The notes under the pieces are model-generated. The model was not told the origin of the DNA and ran no database searches. It was given only the letters and a program-made list of their open reading frames with translations. A stretch of 64,000 nt of DNA, taken from positions 434,001 to 498,000 of the forward strand of contig NZ_JACVCU010000004.1 of NCBI RefSeq assembly GCF_014518425.1, read 5' to 3'. Made by a program: the position numbers and the translations under genes. Shown piece by piece: positions 2,619 to 11,238 of this stretch; positions within the stretch are counted from its first letter, which is position 1, and each line of letters starts with the position of its first letter. The DNA comes from Terrabacter sp. MAHUQ-38 (GTDB lineage: Bacteria > Actinomycetota > Actinomycetes > Actinomycetales > Dermatophilaceae).

Positions 2619-3740
2619 TCAGGCCGATCCACCGGCGAGGGGCCGGCCGGGCACCGAGGCCGTCACCCCGGCGCCGAGGACCGTCCGGTAGACACGTTCG
2701 TAGCCCCGGCCCATCACGTCGAGACTGAAGTGCTCGCCGACCCAGGCACGGCATTCCGCGGCGTCGAGCTCGCCTGTCCGCAGGATCGCCGGGGCCAGCT
2801 CGTGGGGCCGGTCGACGACGAAGCCGGTCCGTCCATGAGCGACCACCTCGGGGACGGCGCCGCGCGCGAATGCGACGACGGGGGTGCCGCACGCCATGGC
2901 TTCTGTCATGACGAGGCCGAACGGCTCGTCCCAGCACACTGGGAAGACGAGGCACCGGGCCCCGGCGAGGAGCCGACGCTTCTGCGCGGCGTCCGCGACG
3001 CCGACGTCCACGACGTCGTCGCCGAGCCGGGGTCGGATCTCGCGCTCGTAGTACTCCTGCTCGTGCCTCTCCTCGCACTTGCCCGCAAGCAGGATCCGCA
3101 AGCCGGCGGCCTTGGCAGCGTCGATGGCGAGGTGAGGCGCCTTGTGTGGATGGTGCCGGCCGAGGAACAGCACGTAGTCGTCCTTGCGGGACCTGAAGGG
3201 GAAGCTGTCCACGTCGATGCCGTTGGGCACGGCGCCGACCCAGTTGAGCTCGGGCGCCTGCTCCATCTGGGAGCGTGAGATGGCCACGAGCTGCACGGCG
3301 CGTCCCAGGGGCCGGTAGACGTCCGCCAGCTCGTCGACCGGGCCGTGGACGGTCACGACCGTGGGCACCCGACGCGAGGCGGCAAGCAGTGGCCCGGCCA
3401 GCGTGTGGTCATGGACGAGGTCAACCCCGTCAAGCCGCAGCCCGGCCAGCACCCGTGCCGCGTTGATCACTTCGCCCGTGCTTCCACCGAGGAGGTGGGC
3501 GGGTGGGTCGGGCCAGGTCTGGACGAACGCCTGGGCGCGTGTGCCGTTGCGTCCCGCGGCAACGAGGGTGACGTGGTGACCGCGCGAGACGAGCGTGTCG
3601 ACGATCCCGGCCACGACGGCCTCGACCCCGCCGTAACCGTCCGGGGGAACCGAGAAGTACGGCGGCGCGATGACCGCGATGCGGAGTGGACGCGGCACGA
3701 CGACGATCCGTCGCACGGCATTCGAGGTAGACGTCGACAT
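2619..3740 (-). CDS. Glycosyltransferase family 4
   Basis: A 373-residue GT-B retaining glycosyltransferase. The N-terminal domain begins RIAVIAPPYFSVPPDGYGGVE, the GT4 acceptor-side signature with a glycine-rich loop; the C-terminal domain has FLGRHHPHKAP and the nucleotide-sugar motif EPFGLVMTE at 272-280 (E-x7-E). It should be cytoplasmic and use a nucleotide or phospho-sugar donor; the product is unknown. The ATG at 3740 is chosen over one 20 codons upstream because GGGGGGCAG sits just before it. It follows the debranching-type gene on the same strand after 93 nt, suggesting a shared carbohydrate role. Confidence 0.9.
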   Translation of the reverse strand: MSTSTSNAVRRIVVVPRPLRIAVIAPPYFSVPPDGYGGVEAVVAGIVDTLVSRGHHVTLVAAGRNGTRAQAFVQTWPDPPAHLLGGSTGEVINAARVLAGLRLDGVDLVHDHTLAGPLLAASRRVPTVVTVHGPVDELADVYRPLGRAVQLVAISRSQMEQAPELNWVGAVPNGIDVDSFPFRSRKDDYVLFLGRHHPHKAPHLAIDAAKAAGLRILLAGKCEERHEQEYYEREIRPRLGDDVVDVGVADAAQKRRLLAGARCLVFPVCWDEPFGLVMTEAMACGTPVVAFARGAVPEVVAHGRTGFVVDRPHELAPAILRTGELDAAECRAWVGEHFSLDVMGRGYERVYRTVLGAGVTASVPGRPLAGGSA

Positions 3741-3833
3741 TCTGCCCCCCACGGCACGTCCGACGGCCCCACACCGTCGCCCAGGACGACCACAGTGCAC
3801 GTACCCCGGGGCGTTCGCCTCAAGCGGACCAGG

Positions 3834-5951
3834 TCAGTGCCGGTCCGCCTCGCCGCTGACGTGGACAGGCGCGTCGACGACCGCGTGACCGGTCGCGTCG
3901 ACCTCGATCCTGATCGTCTCGGTCCCCACGTGCAGCTGGTCGATCGAGAACGGCAGGAACCTGGCAGAAAGGTCGGGTTCGCAGTTGATCCCCGTCGCCG
4001 GCAGGTCGGGCTCGAGCCCGAGCAGCGATCGCAGGAGCGAGAAGGGGGCCGCGGCCGCCCAGGCCTGTGGCGCGCAGGACGTCGGATAGGGCACCGGCTC
4101 GGGGAACTCGTCGCGGCCGAACCCGCAGAAGAGCTCGGGAAGCCGGTCGTCGAAGCTCGCGGCCGCGTCGACGAGTCCGACCGCCACCTGCTTGGCCCCG
4201 TCGACGAAGCCGTAGCGGCGTAGCCCGGCGACCACGATCGCGTTGTCGTGGGGCCACACCGAGCCGTTGTGGTAGCTCATCGGGTTGTAAGCCCCCATGT
4301 TCGATCCGAGGGTGCGCACGCCGAAACCGCTGAACATCTCCTCGCTCAGCAGCGCGGCCGCGACGGACCGAGCGTGCTCCGGCGCGGCGATCCCCGTCCA
4401 GAGGCAGTGGCCCATGTTCGAGGCGAGGCTGTCGACAGGTCGCTTGTCGCAGTCGAGCGCCAGGGCGTAGTAGCCCTGGCGCGGGAGCCAGAACGCCTCG
4501 TTGAACCGTCGCGCCAGCTGTGTCGCCCGCTCTTCGCAGTGACGAGCGCGCTCCTCCTCACCCATCGCGCGGGCCAGCCTCGCGCGCGCCAGCCAGGCGG
4601 CATAGACGTAGCCCTGCACCTCGGCGAGCGCGATCGGCGGCTCTGCAGTCAGGCCGGACGCGAACGTGACGCCGTCGAAGGAGTCCTTCCAGCCCTGGTT
4701 GAGCAGCCCCCGGTCGGTGGCGCGAGCGTACTCGACGAACCCGTCACCGTCGCGGTCGCCGTACGCGTCGACCCACTCGAGCGCACGGTCCGCGTGTGGC
4801 AGCAGCGGTTCGAGGTCGGTGAGTGGTGCGCCCCACCGGTGCAGCTCCCCCAGGAGCATGACGAACAAGGGGGTCGCGTCGATGCTTCCGTAGTAGACGT
4901 CGTCGGTACCCGGCGTCTGCCCGGTGTCGAGGCCGGACCTGATCTCGTGGAGGATCCGGCCGGGCTCCTCCTCGCGGGTGGGGTGCAGCGTCGTGCCCTG
5001 GTGCTCGGACAGGGTCTCGAGCGTGCCTCGGGCCACGCGGGAGTCGACCGGGAGCAGCATCCAGCTCGTCAGAAGGGAGTCGCGGCCGAAGATCGTCATG
5101 AACCAGGGCGCGCCAGCCGCCATCACGATCCTGCTCGGGTGCTCGGGATCGTCGATGCGCAGGCCGGCGAGGTCGTCGGTGCTGTTGCGGACGAGCCGGA
5201 CGAGATGGATGTCCGGCGAGCGGACCGAGGGGCTGCGTTGACGCCAGCGCGCGTGCCGGATCGCCGGCGGACTGTCGTGGTGTGGCTCGCCCGGCACGTA
5301 CGGCGTCGTGAGCGGGACGCCGTCGAAGAAGGGCACGACACGAACCGTGAGGGTGGCCGTCTCCCGTGCGCCGACGACGAGGTCCCATGTGTGCAGTCCT
5401 GGGCGGACGTCGGGACCGCCCGATCCCGTCACGTCGACCGAGCGTGACTCGGCGCCACGCTGCTGGCTCTGCGACCACCCGCTCCCGGTGACCGACGTGG
5501 TGATCGCCGCCTGGTGCAGGGGACGACCGTCCTTGACCTCGAAGAGCCCCGCGAAGTCCGTCGCGGCCGAGAGGCTCAGCCTCAGGGCCGTCGTCTCGCG
5601 TCCGAGGTTGGCGACGGAGATCTCTTCCACCATGCCGTTGCCCACGTAGCGCCGGCGCACGACGAGGAGCGTGCTGTCGGCCACGCCGTCCCGCGGTCGC
5701 CTGCGGGTGACGTATGCCGCCGAATGCGGGTCGATGCGCTGGACGTCCAGGCACTCCAGCGGCTCCCCGTCGACGCGCAGCTGGAAGTTCGCGAGGAAGC
5801 GGGTGTCCTTGACGATGAGCCCGTGGGCCCTGGCGGGATCCATGTCACCGCTCGCGTCGGAGATGCAGAAGCTGCGGCCCTCGACGAGCGTGACCTGCGC
5901 GGTCGCTCCCGCTGACGGCGTCGGCCCGGTGAACACCCAACCATCGGTCAT
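3834..5951 (-). CDS. Glycogen debranching-type amylo-alpha-1,6-glucosidase
   Basis: A 705-residue protein with an N-terminal beta-rich debranching domain (SFCISDASGDMDPARAHGLIVKDTRFL, the usual start of the bacterial GDE N-terminal family) and a C-terminal (alpha/alpha)6-barrel with GWKDS, AEVQGYVYAAW, NMGHCLWTG and YHNGSVWPHDNA. These are hallmarks of GH63/GH133-like glucosidases that remove alpha-1,6 or terminal glucose residues. No signal peptide, so it is cytoplasmic. First gene of a two-gene minus-strand unit with the GT4 gene; such pairs are often tied to trehalose or glycogen turnover under stress, but that link is inferred. Confidence 0.88.
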   Translation of the reverse strand: MTDGWVFTGPTPSAGATAQVTLVEGRSFCISDASGDMDPARAHGLIVKDTRFLANFQLRVDGEPLECLDVQRIDPHSAAYVTRRRPRDGVADSTLLVVRRRYVGNGMVEEISVANLGRETTALRLSLSAATDFAGLFEVKDGRPLHQAAITTSVTGSGWSQSQQRGAESRSVDVTGSGGPDVRPGLHTWDLVVGARETATLTVRVVPFFDGVPLTTPYVPGEPHHDSPPAIRHARWRQRSPSVRSPDIHLVRLVRNSTDDLAGLRIDDPEHPSRIVMAAGAPWFMTIFGRDSLLTSWMLLPVDSRVARGTLETLSEHQGTTLHPTREEEPGRILHEIRSGLDTGQTPGTDDVYYGSIDATPLFVMLLGELHRWGAPLTDLEPLLPHADRALEWVDAYGDRDGDGFVEYARATDRGLLNQGWKDSFDGVTFASGLTAEPPIALAEVQGYVYAAWLARARLARAMGEEERARHCEERATQLARRFNEAFWLPRQGYYALALDCDKRPVDSLASNMGHCLWTGIAAPEHARSVAAALLSEEMFSGFGVRTLGSNMGAYNPMSYHNGSVWPHDNAIVVAGLRRYGFVDGAKQVAVGLVDAAASFDDRLPELFCGFGRDEFPEPVPYPTSCAPQAWAAAAPFSLLRSLLGLEPDLPATGINCEPDLSARFLPFSIDQLHVGTETIRIEVDATGHAVVDAPVHVSGEADRH

Positions 5952-6029
5952 AGCCTCTCAGCCCACGCCCCGGAGGCGGCGGTGTCAACCAGCAACGTGG
6001 GGAGAATTTTCACCGTCGGCGATGTGTCC

Positions 6030-7982
6030 CTATCCACGAGGTCGGGAGGTGACCACGAAGACGGAGTCGGTACGCCAGTCGGCCACCGCCGCGGCAGCCG
6101 CGCTGGGGCCAAGACGTCGCGTGCGGGTGCCGCCGAGGGCGCGTTCGAGGTTCGAACGCAAGGCGATCGGGACGTCGGCGCTGCGCAACGCCGGGCTGTT
6201 CGGACCGGGCACCGCGCTGACGTCGAGCTCCTCCTGCTCGAGCGAGCGCGGGTCGAACTCCAGCGTGCTGGTGACGACCATGAGCTGGTCACGCAGCGAG
6301 ACCGTCCCCGCCTGCCACAGCGCGTCGGAGAGCTGACCGACGAGGTCCACGCTCGTCGACTCCCCGGGACCGAGCGCCACCGAGCCGGCGGGGAAGGCGT
6401 CGGTGAAGATGCCGTATGTCTCCGTCAGGTCGAGCAGCGCCGCCCAGAGGGGGGTGGAGGTCGTGTTCGCGAGGCGCACGGTGAATCGTGGAGGGTCCGT
6501 GCCGGCATACGCGATGGTGATCGTGCCTCCCGCGCCGACCCGGCCGGTGCCCGCGTCCACCTCGACGCGCACCGCGTCGCCGGGCAGGTGCGTCGCCGGG
6601 TTGGTCAGGGCGCAGAGACGCAGCCAGCGGGCGACCCGTTCGAGGGCATGGATCGTGCGCTCCTCGCGGCCCACACCGGCGACGACGGGCACCAGCGGAC
6701 GGGTCACGCCGGGCCTGGTGATGATGAAGCCGTCGGCGGTGGCCTCCACGAGCAGGTCCGCGTCGGTGGTCGCGTCGGGGTCGGCGAGCTCGACCAGGGT
6801 CTCGTCCGCTGCGTCGGCGGCCGCACGCAGCGCTGCCGTCCCGACCGCGTCGCCGACGACCCCGACGAGCAGCGGCTTGAGCGGGATCGACGTGACGACG
6901 GCACGGTAGACGTACGCGTCGTCGAGCTCGGGGGTCAGCATCACCAGGCTACGGTCGGGAAGCACCTTCGTCACGGCGGCCGTCGCGAGGGGCGAGCCGG
7001 ACGTCTCGCCCGTCAGCGGGTAGACGGCCAGCTCGGTCGTGTCGTCTCCGAGGGGCTCGGGTACGCCGTGGACGGCGCCGGAGTCGATCGACCAGCCGTC
7101 GGGGAGGTGGCTCAGCGTCAGCGGTCTGGGGGTCGCCGGGATGGCGCCACCGAGGAACGGGCGGTCCAGCTCGGTGGCGTCTGCCGTCTCGACCTGCGGG
7201 TGCTGGTCGCGGACGCGGCTCGCGACGTCGGCCGTGACGATGCGCAGGACGTCGCGGTACGACGGCCGCCCGTCGGTCCCGGTGAGCGCCGCCTCGAGCG
7301 CGGCCGACATGGCCCCGCGCTGGCGCCCCATGACGGTGACCTCCTTGGCCTTCTCGGACGACCGGCAGGCGGCGAGCAGGACGTGCCGCCCGACCGGGGT
7401 CCAGCGTGCGGTGCTGCGCTGCGTCGAGGCGACGTGACCCGGGTCGCCCACGGTCACCCCGACGAAGCTGCTCGCCGGACGGGGGCGCGGGTCGGCGGGC
7501 GCGAGCCGGACGACCTCGTCGGCGTCACGCGTGCCGTCGCCGGCGTGGCAGCAGTCGAGGACGACGAGGGTGTGGCAGCCGGACGACGAGACGTCGTCGA
7601 GCAGGCCCGCGAGCTCCTTGTCGGCAAGGTCCCAGCTGCCCGGCGATCGGCTGTCGAAGCAGACGAGGGTCTCGTTGCGGTGGTCCGGCTCGATCGTCCA
7701 GAGCGCCTGCGGCGTGGCCTGCTGCGAGCCGTGGCCGCTGTAGTAGAAGAGCGCCACGTCAGCGCTGTCAGCGCGCCCGAGGTGCTCGGCGAGGCGGGCC
7801 GTGACGGCTGACCGGGTGGCGTCGGCGTCGGTCAGCACCACGAGGTCGAGCGCGTCCGGCGTGACGCGCTCGCGGAGCACCTCGGCGATGCTGGTGACGT
7901 CGTTGACGCAGCCGGACAACCGCGGGATCGGAGCGGGGTATGCGTCGATCCCGACGAGCAGCGCATAGAGGCGGCCGGCCAT
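6030..7982 (-). CDS. Caspase-like (peptidase C14) protein with long C-terminal region
   Basis: 650 residues. The first 280 or so form a caspase/metacaspase p20 domain: YALLVGIDAYPAPIPRLSGCVNDV, catalytic His in YYSGHGSQ (H84) and catalytic Cys in VLDCCHAGDG (C145, with C144 next to it). The remaining 370 residues are not a known protease part. A stretch near the end (RFTVRLANTTSTPLWAALLDL...GIFTDAFP) resembles DUF4384-type beta domains often attached to bacterial caspases. No signal peptide or membrane segment. The start is the ATG at 7982, two bases after the stop of the CHAT gene, so the two are almost certainly translated together. A longer in-frame extension runs inside the CHAT gene and is not real. 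Confidence 0.9.
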   Translation of the reverse strand: MAGRLYALLVGIDAYPAPIPRLSGCVNDVTSIAEVLRERVTPDALDLVVLTDADATRSAVTARLAEHLGRADSADVALFYYSGHGSQQATPQALWTIEPDHRNETLVCFDSRSPGSWDLADKELAGLLDDVSSSGCHTLVVLDCCHAGDGTRDADEVVRLAPADPRPRPASSFVGVTVGDPGHVASTQRSTARWTPVGRHVLLAACRSSEKAKEVTVMGRQRGAMSAALEAALTGTDGRPSYRDVLRIVTADVASRVRDQHPQVETADATELDRPFLGGAIPATPRPLTLSHLPDGWSIDSGAVHGVPEPLGDDTTELAVYPLTGETSGSPLATAAVTKVLPDRSLVMLTPELDDAYVYRAVVTSIPLKPLLVGVVGDAVGTAALRAAADAADETLVELADPDATTDADLLVEATADGFIITRPGVTRPLVPVVAGVGREERTIHALERVARWLRLCALTNPATHLPGDAVRVEVDAGTGRVGAGGTITIAYAGTDPPRFTVRLANTTSTPLWAALLDLTETYGIFTDAFPAGSVALGPGESTSVDLVGQLSDALWQAGTVSLRDQLMVVTSTLEFDPRSLEQEELDVSAVPGPNSPALRSADVPIALRSNLERALGGTRTRRLGPSAAAAAVADWRTDSVFVVTSRPRG

Positions 7983-7984
7983 CG

Positions 7985-10300
7985 TCAGCCCGAGTCGCCC
8001 AGCGCGACCGTCTGCCACCTGGCGGGCAGGTTCTGGTTGCTGCCCGAACGCTGCGCATTGCTGCTGAGCATCGTGCGTAGGGCCCAGTCGGCTCCCGCCC
8101 CCCTCGCGTCGCTGATGTTGACGTTCATCCCGAGGACGTCGCCGCGCTGGGGAGCGACGGTGCGGCCCACCTCCGACCACGGGATGCGGGCTTCGAGCTC
8201 GTAGCCGCCCTCGCTCACGCGGGCAACGACGTCGATCGCGGAGCGCCGGCTCCCCGTGGAGAAGACGAGCTTGTTCTTGGAGTTGGGGCCGACGGTGTTC
8301 ACGTCCGCTCCCGCGCGCCGGTCCGTGTCGGAGAGGAGGGCGAGGATGACGTGGAAGTCCTGACCCTTGCGCAGTGGCGCCGTGCGGGAGAGTCCGCGCG
8401 GGTCGGGGCCGACCTCGAACGAGACGGCGTCCCCGTTCCACCACTGCGGCGGCTTGCCCTCGGCGGGAGTGACGACGGGGTCGACCACGACGGTGTGCAG
8501 GTAGAGCCCGTCGCCGTCCCACAGCCCCTGCCAGGTCGCGGTGAGGCCGGCCCGTCGGTTCGCGGCGCCGAAGACAGCCGCGTCGACGTCGTGTTCCGGA
8601 ACCGAGCGCCAGTCGTCGAAGGAGCCGTCGATCGTGGGGGCGATCGGCGCGCACCCGATCGTGAAGTCGGTCGTCCCGGGAGCCGCCGTGCTGGACCCGC
8701 AGGCCGCGGCGACGAGTGGGTCGGCCTTCTGGAGCAGCGAGGGCAGGAACCGCCACGCGGACCAGCCACCCACGAGGACGGCGAGGAGCACGGCTGCGCG
8801 GATCCACGTCGCAGTCCGGCTCCTGCGCCCCCCAGGGCGGTCCGACACGGGCGCGGGCTGAGGCGTCGGCCGGACCCTGGGCGGTGCGCTGCCGCCGTCG
8901 AGGGCGGGCCCCGAGGGGGTGTCGGCGCCGGCGTCGGGACCTCCGGTCGCGATCGGGCTGGTCGGCCCGGTCGGCCCGGGCGGTGCCGGGCGCCGAGTCA
9001 CGGCGATCGGCGCCGTCCGGGCCGACGGGCGCACGCGCTCGAGCAGCTCGGTGACGTCCTGGTAGTCAGGCCGCTCGGCCGCGACCTGTTCGAGGAGCGG
9101 CAACGCGGTGGCCGTGGCACCGGCCTGGAGGGCGCCCTGCGCGGCGTCGTAGAGGGACTCCAGCCGGCCCTCGGGCCGGGTGGCGGCCGTGGTGGCGCTC
9201 GCGGTGAAGCTGAACGGCTGGTCCGAACCCGACCGCAGCAGCACGGCCGTGCCCCACTCGGACGCCTCGTCGGAGACGGCCATCGCCTTGCGCACCTCGC
9301 ACATCGCGGCGTCGATGCCGAGCCCACGCGTGAGGAAGTAGTAGAACTCGTGGCTGAAGACGATCGCGGCCCGGTCGGAGATCTCGGTCTGCATCGCGAC
9401 GACGGCCGGCAGCCCCTGCCGGACGAGGGCCTGGCCGACGCCGGAGAACGCGTCACGGCCCGACGTGCGCGCGCCCTCACAGGCGTTGAGGACGGCCAGC
9501 TGCATCGCGCGGGCGTCGTGGAGCAGCGTGCCGAGCCGCGCGCCGGAGACCCGATGGGCCGTGCCGTCCTCGCGCTCGAGCACGAGGACCCCCTCCTGGG
9601 CCTGCTGGTCGAAGCCGCCGTGCCCGATGAAGTGGAAGACGTGGTAGTCGTCGAGCAGGGCCCGCTGCAGACCCGTGAGAGTCGCGTCCTCGAGCACCGT
9701 GATCGCCAGCCGGCCGCTCGCGACGAGGTCCCCGGTCGTCGCCCGGAGCAGCTGCTCCTCGCGCTCGACGGCGAGCTCGGGCATGTCCGTCGGGCTCGAG
9801 ATCATGACGAGGACCTTGAGCGGGGCGTCGACCGTGACGACGGGCGGGCGCTCGAGCGAGTCGAACAGGCGCACGATCGGTGTCTCCTGCGACAGGGTGA
9901 GGAACCGGCCGAGCCTCGAGTCGTAGAGGTACTCCCACGGGACTGGGTCGAGGTCGGGCACCGCCTCGAGGCGCAGCCGCAGACGCAGGTCCTTGCCCTG
10001 GCCGGTGGCCGTCGAGAGGCTCGCCCGGAACGCCTTCCCGACGTCACCCGAGAGCAGCGCGTCGCCCAGCCGGCGTCCGTAGTCCTTGACGTCCACGACC
10101 CGTGCCTCTGCGGGCGCCAGCCTCCGGGAGGCGACGCGGGGTGGTCCGACCGCGATCATGAACTGCGCCAGGTCGACCGGTGCGAACGGCAGCGTGAACG
10201 GTGCTGACGCCTCGCCGGCGGGCGAGGCGACGACGTGAGCGGCATACCCCTGGCCCTCACGGGTGACGGCGACGTCGAAGTCGAGATAGTCACGGCTCAT
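7985..10300 (-). CDS. CHAT protease with membrane anchor and CBM9-like external domain
   Basis: 771 residues in three parts. Residues 1-360 are a CHAT (caspase HetF-associated) protease: the catalytic His is H227 in FHFIGHGG and the Cys is C274 in LNACEGA, followed by the typical AVVAMQTEISDRAA and FSHEFYYFLTRG segments. Residues 430-495 are a Pro/Gly/Thr-rich linker. A single membrane helix (about 503-523) follows, then residues 555-765 resemble carbohydrate-binding family 9 / DOMON sugar-binding domains (IDGSFDDW, DGDGLYLHTVVVD, WWNGDAVSFEV, YELEARIPWSEVG). The protease would sit inside and the binding domain outside. ATG at 10300 has AGAGGA 5 nt upstream. It is the first gene of an operon with the caspase. 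Confidence 0.88.
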   Translation of the reverse strand: MSRDYLDFDVAVTREGQGYAAHVVASPAGEASAPFTLPFAPVDLAQFMIAVGPPRVASRRLAPAEARVVDVKDYGRRLGDALLSGDVGKAFRASLSTATGQGKDLRLRLRLEAVPDLDPVPWEYLYDSRLGRFLTLSQETPIVRLFDSLERPPVVTVDAPLKVLVMISSPTDMPELAVEREEQLLRATTGDLVASGRLAITVLEDATLTGLQRALLDDYHVFHFIGHGGFDQQAQEGVLVLEREDGTAHRVSGARLGTLLHDARAMQLAVLNACEGARTSGRDAFSGVGQALVRQGLPAVVAMQTEISDRAAIVFSHEFYYFLTRGLGIDAAMCEVRKAMAVSDEASEWGTAVLLRSGSDQPFSFTASATTAATRPEGRLESLYDAAQGALQAGATATALPLLEQVAAERPDYQDVTELLERVRPSARTAPIAVTRRPAPPGPTGPTSPIATGGPDAGADTPSGPALDGGSAPPRVRPTPQPAPVSDRPGGRRSRTATWIRAAVLLAVLVGGWSAWRFLPSLLQKADPLVAAACGSSTAAPGTTDFTIGCAPIAPTIDGSFDDWRSVPEHDVDAAVFGAANRRAGLTATWQGLWDGDGLYLHTVVVDPVVTPAEGKPPQWWNGDAVSFEVGPDPRGLSRTAPLRKGQDFHVILALLSDTDRRAGADVNTVGPNSKNKLVFSTGSRRSAIDVVARVSEGGYELEARIPWSEVGRTVAPQRGDVLGMNVNISDARGAGADWALRTMLSSNAQRSGSNQNLPARWQTVALGDSG

Positions 10301-10433
10301 GGCGATCCTCTGTCCGCAGGAGCGTGCCTGCAACTGACAGTACGCCGGGCCGCCCTGTCTGATACGGCTTTTCGCCTTTTAGTCCAGGACGCCACGTGTC
10401 GCTAGGATCGTCCCGAGCGCGCGTGCCGCGCTC

Positions 10434-10473
10434 GCGGACGAGGGAGCCGTACCCGCACAGCGACAAGACGGCC
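10434..10473 (+). ncRNA. Guanidine-III (ykkC-III) riboswitch
   Basis: The order of conserved blocks GGACGAGG, GCCGTACCC and GACAAGACGGC matches the class III guanidine aptamer as I recall it. An H-type pseudoknot is possible: GCGG (10434-10437) pairs with CCGC (10453-10456), and GCCGT (10446-10450) pairs with ACGGC (10468-10472). P1 differs in sequence from the published Thermobifida RNA but keeps pairing. The Shine-Dalgarno GGAACGG follows directly, so ligand binding probably acts on translation of the SMR pair. Confidence 0.88.
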
Positions 10474-10486
10474 GGAACGGAACCCC

Positions 10487-10801
10487 GTGCACTGGCTCGT
10501 CCTCATCCTCTCCGGCGCGCTCGAGGCCGTCTGGGCCACGGCGCTCGCCGCGTCCGACGGCTTCCGCCGCCCCAGGCCGACCACCCTCTTCGGCGTCTCG
10601 CTCGTGCTGAGCGTGGTGGGCCTGGCGTGGGCGATGACGGCACTGCCGACCGGGACGGCATACGCCGTGTGGGTCGGGATCGGCGCCGTCGGCACCGTCC
10701 TGCTCGCCGTCGTGCGGCGCGAGGAGCGTCTCGGCGCGGCACGCGCTGCGCTGCTCGTCGTCCTCGTCGGCTGCGTCGCCGGGCTCAAGGCGGTGGCGTG
10801 A
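10487..10801 (+). CDS. SMR-family transporter subunit 1, probable guanidinium exporter
   Basis: 104 residues, four membrane helices, typical of small multidrug resistance proteins. It starts MHWLVLILSGALEAVWATALAAS, with the membrane-embedded Glu (E13) that couples substrate to protons, and carries the GTAYAVWVGIGAVGT motif of the Gdx/SugE branch. GTG start at 10487 sits just after the guanidine riboswitch and its Shine-Dalgarno. The stop overlaps the next SMR gene by one base (TGATG). Two adjacent SMR genes usually form a heterodimer; the riboswitch makes guanidinium the likely substrate. Confidence 0.92.
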   Translation: MHWLVLILSGALEAVWATALAASDGFRRPRPTTLFGVSLVLSVVGLAWAMTALPTGTAYAVWVGIGAVGTVLLAVVRREERLGAARAALLVVLVGCVAGLKAVA

Positions 10802-11160
10802 TGCCGTGGGTCGTCCTGCTCGCGAGCGCCGTTCTCGAAGCCGTGTGGGCGTCGGCGCTGGCCGCGTCCGAGGGCCTGAGCCGTCCCGGGCCCGCCGCCC
10901 TCTTCGTCGTCGCGGGCGCGCTCAGCATGGTCGGGCTCGCGCACGCCGTGCGAGTCATCCCGATCGGTACCGCGTATGCCGTGTGGACCGGCCTCGGGGC
11001 CGCGCTCACGGTGACGTGGGCCATGACGACCGGCGGTGAGGCCTTCTCCGTCGTCAAGGTCGTCCTGCTCGCGGGCATCGTCGCGACGGTCGTGGGGCTG
11101 AAGCTCGTCGGGTACGAGGCGCGTGGGATCTCCGATCCGGGGGACGCCCCCGCTAGCTGA
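10801..11160 (+). CDS. SMR-family transporter subunit 2, probable guanidinium exporter
   Basis: 119 residues, four helices, paralogue of the preceding gene: MPWVVLLASAVLEAVWASALAASEG has the same embedded Glu (E14), and GTAYAVWTGLGAALT matches the partner's motif. A 15-residue hydrophilic tail extends past the fourth helix. The start codon shares one base with the previous stop, so the two subunits are made in step. Together they form a paired SMR exporter, inserted in the inner membrane in opposite topology in known examples. Confidence 0.92.
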   Translation: MPWVVLLASAVLEAVWASALAASEGLSRPGPAALFVVAGALSMVGLAHAVRVIPIGTAYAVWTGLGAALTVTWAMTTGGEAFSVVKVVLLAGIVATVVGLKLVGYEARGISDPGDAPAS

Positions 11161-11238
11161 GACACCCCGCACCGTTCACGCGGATATGCGGTGTTTCGGG
11201 GGTCGATGTCGCCCTCGGCGGTGATGATGGGGCGCGTC

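Follow-up and report, generated by a model that had tools for sequence, protein, structure and literature searches.

A membrane-anchored CHAT protease with an outer CBM9-fold domain beside a metacaspase-type protease in Terrabacter sp. MAHUQ-38: a possible surface-triggered protease relay

Can a protease cascade of a bacterium be triggered from outside the cell? Bacterial caspases and CHAT proteases have been tied to cell death and defence, and their best described triggers (CRISPR RNA, cyclic nucleotides) are intracellular. Two adjacent genes of Terrabacter sp. MAHUQ-38, a unit found in soil actinobacteria, raise this question. They lie in a stretch of 64,000 nucleotides, hereafter the window (G000:C13:434001-498000), within a genome of 5.16 Mb that stands closest to Terrabacter-like Intrasporangiaceae, and they encode P0001, a CHAT protease joined through a membrane helix to an outer domain of the CBM9 fold, and P0002, a metacaspase-type protease. 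The pair may constitute a surface receptor coupled to a CHAT-to-caspase two-protease relay, a reading to which we assign a probability of about 0.5. If true, the path from the outer CBM9 domain to the CHAT protease and on to the neighbouring caspase would carry a signal into the cell by proteolysis, in an arrangement like that of animal death receptors. The features described below, namely the Arg sites of the caspase, an outer domain apparently exchanged at a fixed locus and a lipase-fused paralogue, make three parts of the idea directly testable.

Domains of the two proteins

P0001 matches the Pfam families CHAT (PF12770) with 109.8 bits and CBM9_1 (PF06452) with 51.8 bits, and the His-Cys dyad of a CHAT protease, H227/C274, is invariant in all 17 alignment rows. 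P0002, which starts 2 nt downstream on the same strand and may be co-transcribed, matches Peptidase C14 with 71.6 bits and shows a metacaspase-like core with its own invariant dyad, H84/C145, followed by a long tail for which Pfam gives no match up to E 10. A preliminary description of the sequence had listed these same elements (the CHAT dyad, a Pro-rich linker, one helix and a CBM9-like domain, with a caspase-like, long-tailed protease 2 nt on), and Pfam, the structural model and the alignments confirm them (Table 1), including the CBM9 fold of the outer region. Of the rows available at each point, the alignments A1, A2, A3 and A4 took in 15 of 18, 17 of 20, 13 of 19 and 15 of 21.

In the case of the outer domain, CBM9 modules bind sugar ends, and by analogy glycan fragments or surface polysaccharide would fit as the ligand. 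Of the 21 outer domains, 19 retain one aromatic position of the binding site, which we take to be a platform residue for the sugar. On the other hand, the xylanase CBM9 modules (1i82, 7nwn) are parts of glycanases, whereas here the fold forms the outer, receptor-like domain of a protease, with a putative binding function.

Overlapping open reading frames of the opposite strand (5982-7811 and 8351-10207) were set aside without a search for domains or homologues in them; the minus-strand genes show domains, conservation and purifying selection. P0001 has no match among phage families and P0002 a single weak one, to a family of unknown function; 27 plasmid records match partially, and none reaches 80% coverage.

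Table 1. Features of the gene pair and of the gene downstream of it (window positions; pLDDT, predicted local distance difference test)
Feature	Positions	Strand	Remarks
Gene 1, P0001	7985..10300	minus	771 aa, ATG start; CHAT domain, then linker, membrane helix and CBM9 domain
CHAT protease domain, residues 73-346	9263..10084	minus	H227 (9620-9622), C274 (9479-9481)
Helical hairpin, weakly TPR-like, residues 379-423	9032..9166	minus	TPR_19 17.1 bits (cut-off 25); helices in model
Disordered Pro-rich linker, residues 426-493	8822..9025	minus	pLDDT <50; sliding identity to relatives drops here
Single membrane helix, residues 495-524	8729..8818	minus	predicted N-in/C-out
Outer CBM9-fold domain, residues 548-771	7988..8659	minus	apparently exchanged between lineages
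Gene 2, P0002	6030..7982	minus	650 aa; metacaspase-type protease and tail
Caspase core, residues 1-280	7143..7982	minus	H84 (7731-7733), C145 (7548-7550)
Linker joining the large and small subunits, residues 170-199	7386..7475	minus	pLDDT <50 at 176-197; Arg motif in homologues
Candidate cleavage after R189	7416-7418	minus	in TQRS, first linker
Beta-rich tail, tentatively Ig-like, residues 284-581	6240..7133	minus	
Second disordered linker, residues 587-633	6084..6224	minus	pLDDT <50 at 582-633; Arg motif in homologues
Candidate cleavage after R600	6183-6185	minus	in ALRS, second linker
C-terminal strand ADWRTDxVxVxTxRP, residues 634-646	6045..6083	minus	modelled as strand despite preceding disordered linker
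Glycogen-debranching-enzyme-like gene	3834..5951	minus	downstream of caspase; at 4/18 loci, no fixed partner

Conservation of the pair and apparent exchange of the outer domain

Relatives of the locus were sought in contigs of 84,980 species by six peptide patterns, which find close relatives only. Nineteen loci were found, 17 of them with full-length CHAT–transmembrane helix–CBM9 (CHAT-TM-CBM9) genes, the CBM9 part recognised by alignment, and with the caspase gene directly downstream of one of these, while the remaining two are distant CHAT genes. In L017, L019 and L021 the outer domain had at first seemed lost, because tblastn matches break at about residue 430, where the variable linker lies; reading and aligning the proteins showed it present. 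Altogether, the pair is seen in 21 distinct genomes: the window's own, those of L007-L023, G078, G020 and G139. In this count G001-G007 (the genomes of L007, L011, L009, L017, L012, L008 and L014) and G079, G084, G091 and G101 (those of L018, L020, L021 and L015) are entered once.

Among 40 genomes of the home family, one per genus, both full-length genes occur in the same six (G000, G078, G079, G084, G091, G101), and in each of them the caspase gene adjoins the CHAT-TM-CBM9 gene. These family searches, at E up to 1e-20 for the caspase and 1e-30 for CHAT-TM-CBM9, gave a match in seven of the 40 genomes each; the seventh caspase match, in G095, is core-only, and the seventh genome with CHAT-TM-CBM9, G070, has that gene alone of the two. 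At the order level, 4 of 24 genomes match at E up to 0.001; beyond G000 the pair is present only in G020, and G028 and G011 have core-only matches (59.7 and 19.2 bits). A second search of 99 genomes at E up to 1e-45 found it, besides the window's genome, in G020 and G139, which belong to another family and where the two genes lie divergent. At the class level (36 genomes, E up to 1e-20) only the window's own genome matches. The joint conservation on which the preliminary description had made its idea depend is therefore borne out in these 21 genomes, even with changed orientation.

Of the 17 relatives, 14 have the unit between leuS and a histidine phosphatase gene; in L007 and L022 one of these flanks is visible and in L013 neither. 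The preliminary description had proposed to look for a defence island, but none of the 10 neighbours tested (within about 22 kb of the window) matches PADLOC at 1e-5. The unit thus keeps a constant place on the chromosome, and among the genes tested there is no sign of a defence island.

At this site the parts of P0001 have not diverged alike. In seven Terrabacter-type relatives the CHAT part (residues 1-420) has 85-91% identity to the window's, the caspase core 73-83% and the caspase tail 81-89%, whereas the outer domain has 41-42%. By comparison, Intrasporangium flavum (L021) shows 79% in CHAT, 69% in the caspase core, 76% in its tail and 69% in the outer domain, and L007 shows 88%, 76%, 79% and 80%, respectively. 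Between the window and L008 the rate of non-synonymous substitution (dN) is 0.044 inside, 0.581 outside and 0.103 in the caspase. The change in identity starts in the linker, and the membrane helix travels with the outer domain. The outer tree, which carries a long-branch warning, groups the window with L007 and L021 (95/94) and rejects the clade of the window, L007 and the seven relatives (p 5.6e-5); the caspase tree, in contrast, supports the latter clade at 100/99 and rejects the former (p 6e-4). The analysis used one genome per species, and the trees were built without L044 and the second copy of L015 (the caspase tree without L044). Because of the low outer identity beside a high CHAT identity, together with the conflict between the two trees, a cassette of helix and outer domain has apparently been replaced by recombination. 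Such an apparent exchange is what a sensor, the role that the preliminary description had supposed for this domain, might show.

Inside the cell, purifying selection is strong: the ratio of non-synonymous to synonymous rates (dN/dS) is 0.02-0.12 in 10 of 12 pairs and 0.20 and 0.25 in the other two, and that of the CHAT part (residues 1-360) lies below the caspase's in 11 of them, the exception being L015/L019. In the outer domain none of the 12 pairs exceeds 1 (range 0.12-0.69), and the signal of this domain is one of exchange and not of dN/dS above 1. In paralogues of G006 and G101 the CHAT part is retained, but joined to a different outer region for which Pfam gives nothing over the cut-off. 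CHAT paralogues with such a region were noted at L048:5011-7491 and L094:5342-7870 (both minus strand), where by eye the same neighbour genes are found in two genera.

Candidate cleavage sites and the proposed relay

Both linkers of the caspase are highly variable in length and letters, and most retain an Arg in the form [TV]R[GS] or a near variant. The strict form is present in 13 of 22 first linkers and 16 of 22 second linkers, compared with means of 2.8 and 4.4 (maxima 9 and 11) in shuffles that ignore the relatedness of the sequences; in the same shuffles the relaxed form [TVAS]R[GSDN], present in 18 and 19 linkers, has means of 6.6 and 10.8 (maxima 13 and 18). The density of the strict motif is 19.5 and 17.6 per 1000 residues in the linkers and 0.84 elsewhere in the same proteins, which is about 20-fold. 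In the other family, the pair retains PGTRGLG/RSRGL and PATRG/ASRGL. The linker of the CHAT protein, in turn, has no such motif (0 of 21, below the shuffle level). Because the caspase linkers keep these motifs and metacaspases cleave after Arg or Lys, it is probable that P0002 is a zymogen that undergoes cutting at two Arg sites, through its own activity or through that of the CHAT protease, and its homology likewise suggests an Arg/Lys specificity.

A paralogue in G101, P0004, has the same tail and the second motif followed by a DUF7379 alpha/beta-hydrolase (lipase-like) domain, and cutting there, at the site ATVR/G, would therefore free the lipase-like domain. The locus of P0004 (L065, G101:C2, 4199-7615, minus) adjoins a different CHAT gene with no CBM9 match. 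The DUF7379 domain turns up again in the window's genome, where it is fused to CHAT next to a caspase, and in G070, next to the receptor-type gene; the window pair itself has none, and one DUF7379 gene over the cut-off lies elsewhere in its genome.

In the relay that we propose, the CBM9-fold domain of P0001 would bind a ligand on the outer side of the membrane, either sugar-like or part of the envelope, and the binding, clustering or loss of this ligand would be relayed through the single helix and the long flexible linker to the inner CHAT protease. CHAT would then switch on P0002, either by cutting it or by gathering copies that cut each other. Activation would consist of cleavage after Arg in the two disordered linkers, one between the caspase subunits and the other before the C-terminal strand, which the second cut would free. 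Finally, the active caspase would act on cell proteins, with growth arrest, death or a surface-triggered response as the possible outcome, and in the paralogue the second site would release the lipase-like domain. A bolder version, which we consider unlikely, is that of a bacterial death receptor, whose lineages would swap helix and CBM9 cassettes like alleles, recognise non-self (competitor, phage-altered or non-kin glycans) and respond with Arg cleavage, which in the paralogue would free a lipase-like effector, leading to membrane attack or programmed death. Such swapping of cassettes at a fixed locus with a conserved inner relay would be as expected for non-self recognition.

Several observations speak against the relay, or against single steps of it. 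The window's own sites, TQRS and ALRS, fit neither the strict nor the relaxed motif; the strict form is absent from 9 of the 22 first linkers and 6 of the 22 second linkers, the first linker of P0004 fits neither form, and that of L023 lacks any Arg. To this is added that the shuffles take no account of relatedness, and that the Arg sites suit the predicted specificity of the caspase itself at least as well as cutting by CHAT. Regarding the coupling, this caspase is missing in G070 although a CHAT-TM-CBM9 gene is present there, and the loci of I. calvum (L016) and H. xanthopallidus (L015) hold two receptor-type genes and one caspase. In the outer domain, the remaining residues of the sugar site, including the second platform residue, were not located in the sequences. 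As for the exchange, the inner CHAT tree is indecisive, the grouping of the outer tree not being rejected there (approximately unbiased test, p 0.162), and the clades compared were named after the trees had been seen, one of them with the long-branch warning given above.

Known systems, alternative explanations and neighbouring loci

The combination of CHAT, caspase and CBM9 was not found for bacteria in the literature searched, mostly papers outside subscription. The statement of the preliminary description that no system of this exact order has been described holds to that extent, and the architecture is new in that literature; systems of its kind, on the other hand, are already described. 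In the membrane-associated EACC1-caspase two-gene systems, passages of PMC7159879 propose that a 5′ protein with one helix triggers the caspase, which would release its C-terminal effector by self-proteolysis, and suggest that membrane-linked caspase pairs are conflict systems. As portrayed there, they share with our unit the actinobacterial two-gene layout, the single membrane pass of the 5′ protein and an N-terminal caspase with a C-terminal extension in the 3′ protein, whereas here the 5′ protein combines a CHAT protease with an outer CBM9 domain, the latter being the variable part. No EACC1 domain is among the Pfam matches of P0001 up to E 1, and the caspase scores 50.3 bits with the EACC1-caspase model NF047832 (cut-off 140). 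Pfam does hold an EACC1 model.

HetF of Anabaena has, according to parts of PMC8406250, a role in the divisome and, like P0001, unites a CHAT domain and a single membrane helix in one protein; unlike P0001, it is drawn with a TPR domain and without CBM9 in the figure legend, and those parts mention no caspase partner. The best NCBIfam match of P0001 is indeed HetF, with 70.5 bits for an equivalog cut-off of 1200. The SAVED-CHAT protease cascade of CRISPR systems senses cyclic nucleotides (passages of PMC11229360 and PMC11417357), whereas a membrane helix and CBM9 are found here. No SAVED family is among the P0001 Pfam matches up to E 1, and the 13 window proteins scanned include no CRISPR genes and, in their Pfam matches, no gasdermin or Cas7-11. 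The unit would work like EACC1-caspase, HetF and SAVED-CHAT, and is a member of none of them. Unlike metacaspases and the MALT1 paracaspase, P0002 is bacterial, its tail ends in a disordered linker and a strand, and it is paired with a CHAT receptor-type gene. DdvA (structures 8rw5 and 8rot), also counted among the closest known proteins, is by entry title a transmembrane anti-sigma factor, and no paper on it was found in the literature searched. For conflict systems diversified by diversity-generating retroelements, earlier work has proposed sensors of lectin type in the vicinity of CHAT or caspase effectors (in passages of PMC10907252), and lectin-fold NPCBM domains have been proposed with death-like domains (in passages of PMC8195603).

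These comparisons bring up other explanations for the pair. A HetF-like, vertically inherited regulator of wall or division, whose CBM9 would read the cell's own wall or glycan and whose proteolysis would tune growth with no killing or defence, is in keeping with the divisome role of HetF, with the constant site and its neighbours free of PADLOC matches, and with the inner purifying selection. However, the HetF score of P0001 is far under the cut-off, the spread is patchy (6 of the 40 family genera), and an outer domain apparently exchanged apart from the caspase is unlike a sensor of a conserved wall of its own, so that we find this explanation rather unlikely. In abortive infection, the outer domain would sense phage adsorption or the breakage of glycans by phage enzymes, and the relay would kill the cell. 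The PADLOC matches of both proteins (SAVED_CHAT, 51.1 bits over residues 201-422 only, and caspase, 113.7 bits) suggest such a role, as do the conflict systems proposed for membrane-linked caspase pairs and the apparent exchange of the sensor, but the fixed site outside any defence island, as far as tested, and the lack of phage-family matches for P0001 do not. A defence function is possible and is not favoured by the genomic context, and we hold it to be quite unlikely. It is likewise improbable that the caspase is the only working protease and the CHAT protein a scaffold or substrate, as the match of the Arg sites to the caspase's own predicted specificity and the motif-free CHAT linker, expected of an uncut scaffold, might suggest, given the invariant H227/C274 and the lower dN/dS of the CHAT part. 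The receptor-coupled relay of two proteases is the reading that we prefer.

Among the neighbouring genes, a glycosyltransferase gene and the glycogen-debranching-like gene (window 2619-5951, minus) follow the caspase as a pair seen at 4 of 18 loci. That the latter gene forms an operon of three with the protease genes was rejected, as it is present at only those four (the window, L012, L017 and L020); L022, whose sequence ends about 0.9 kb past the caspase, is uninformative here. Differing extra genes lie between the caspase and the histidine phosphatase gene in L016:9128-16000 and L018:14264-16400 (BioY-like and transporter ATPase by eye, DUF222-HNH by Pfam), and the site downstream takes up other genes. 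In G070 (L093, G070:C98, 3000-9315) a CHAT gene and a DUF7379 gene lie in divergent orientation to the CHAT-TM-CBM9 gene and make up another set of partners.

Other CHAT loci are also present in these genomes. A second CHAT and caspase pair of the window's genome (L045, G000:C11:842000-857000, 6643-11234, minus) encodes a DUF7362-DUF7379-DUF7363-CHAT protein of 1217 aa and, after it, a caspase, and in G028 (L049:8130-12758) a DUF7363-CHAT gene precedes a caspase gene. Finally, L046 of the window's genome (G000:C1:1260000-1276000, 6185-8512, minus) combines CHAT with TIR_2 (29 bits, cut-off 28), and its CHAT protein has, by eye, C-terminal membrane segments.
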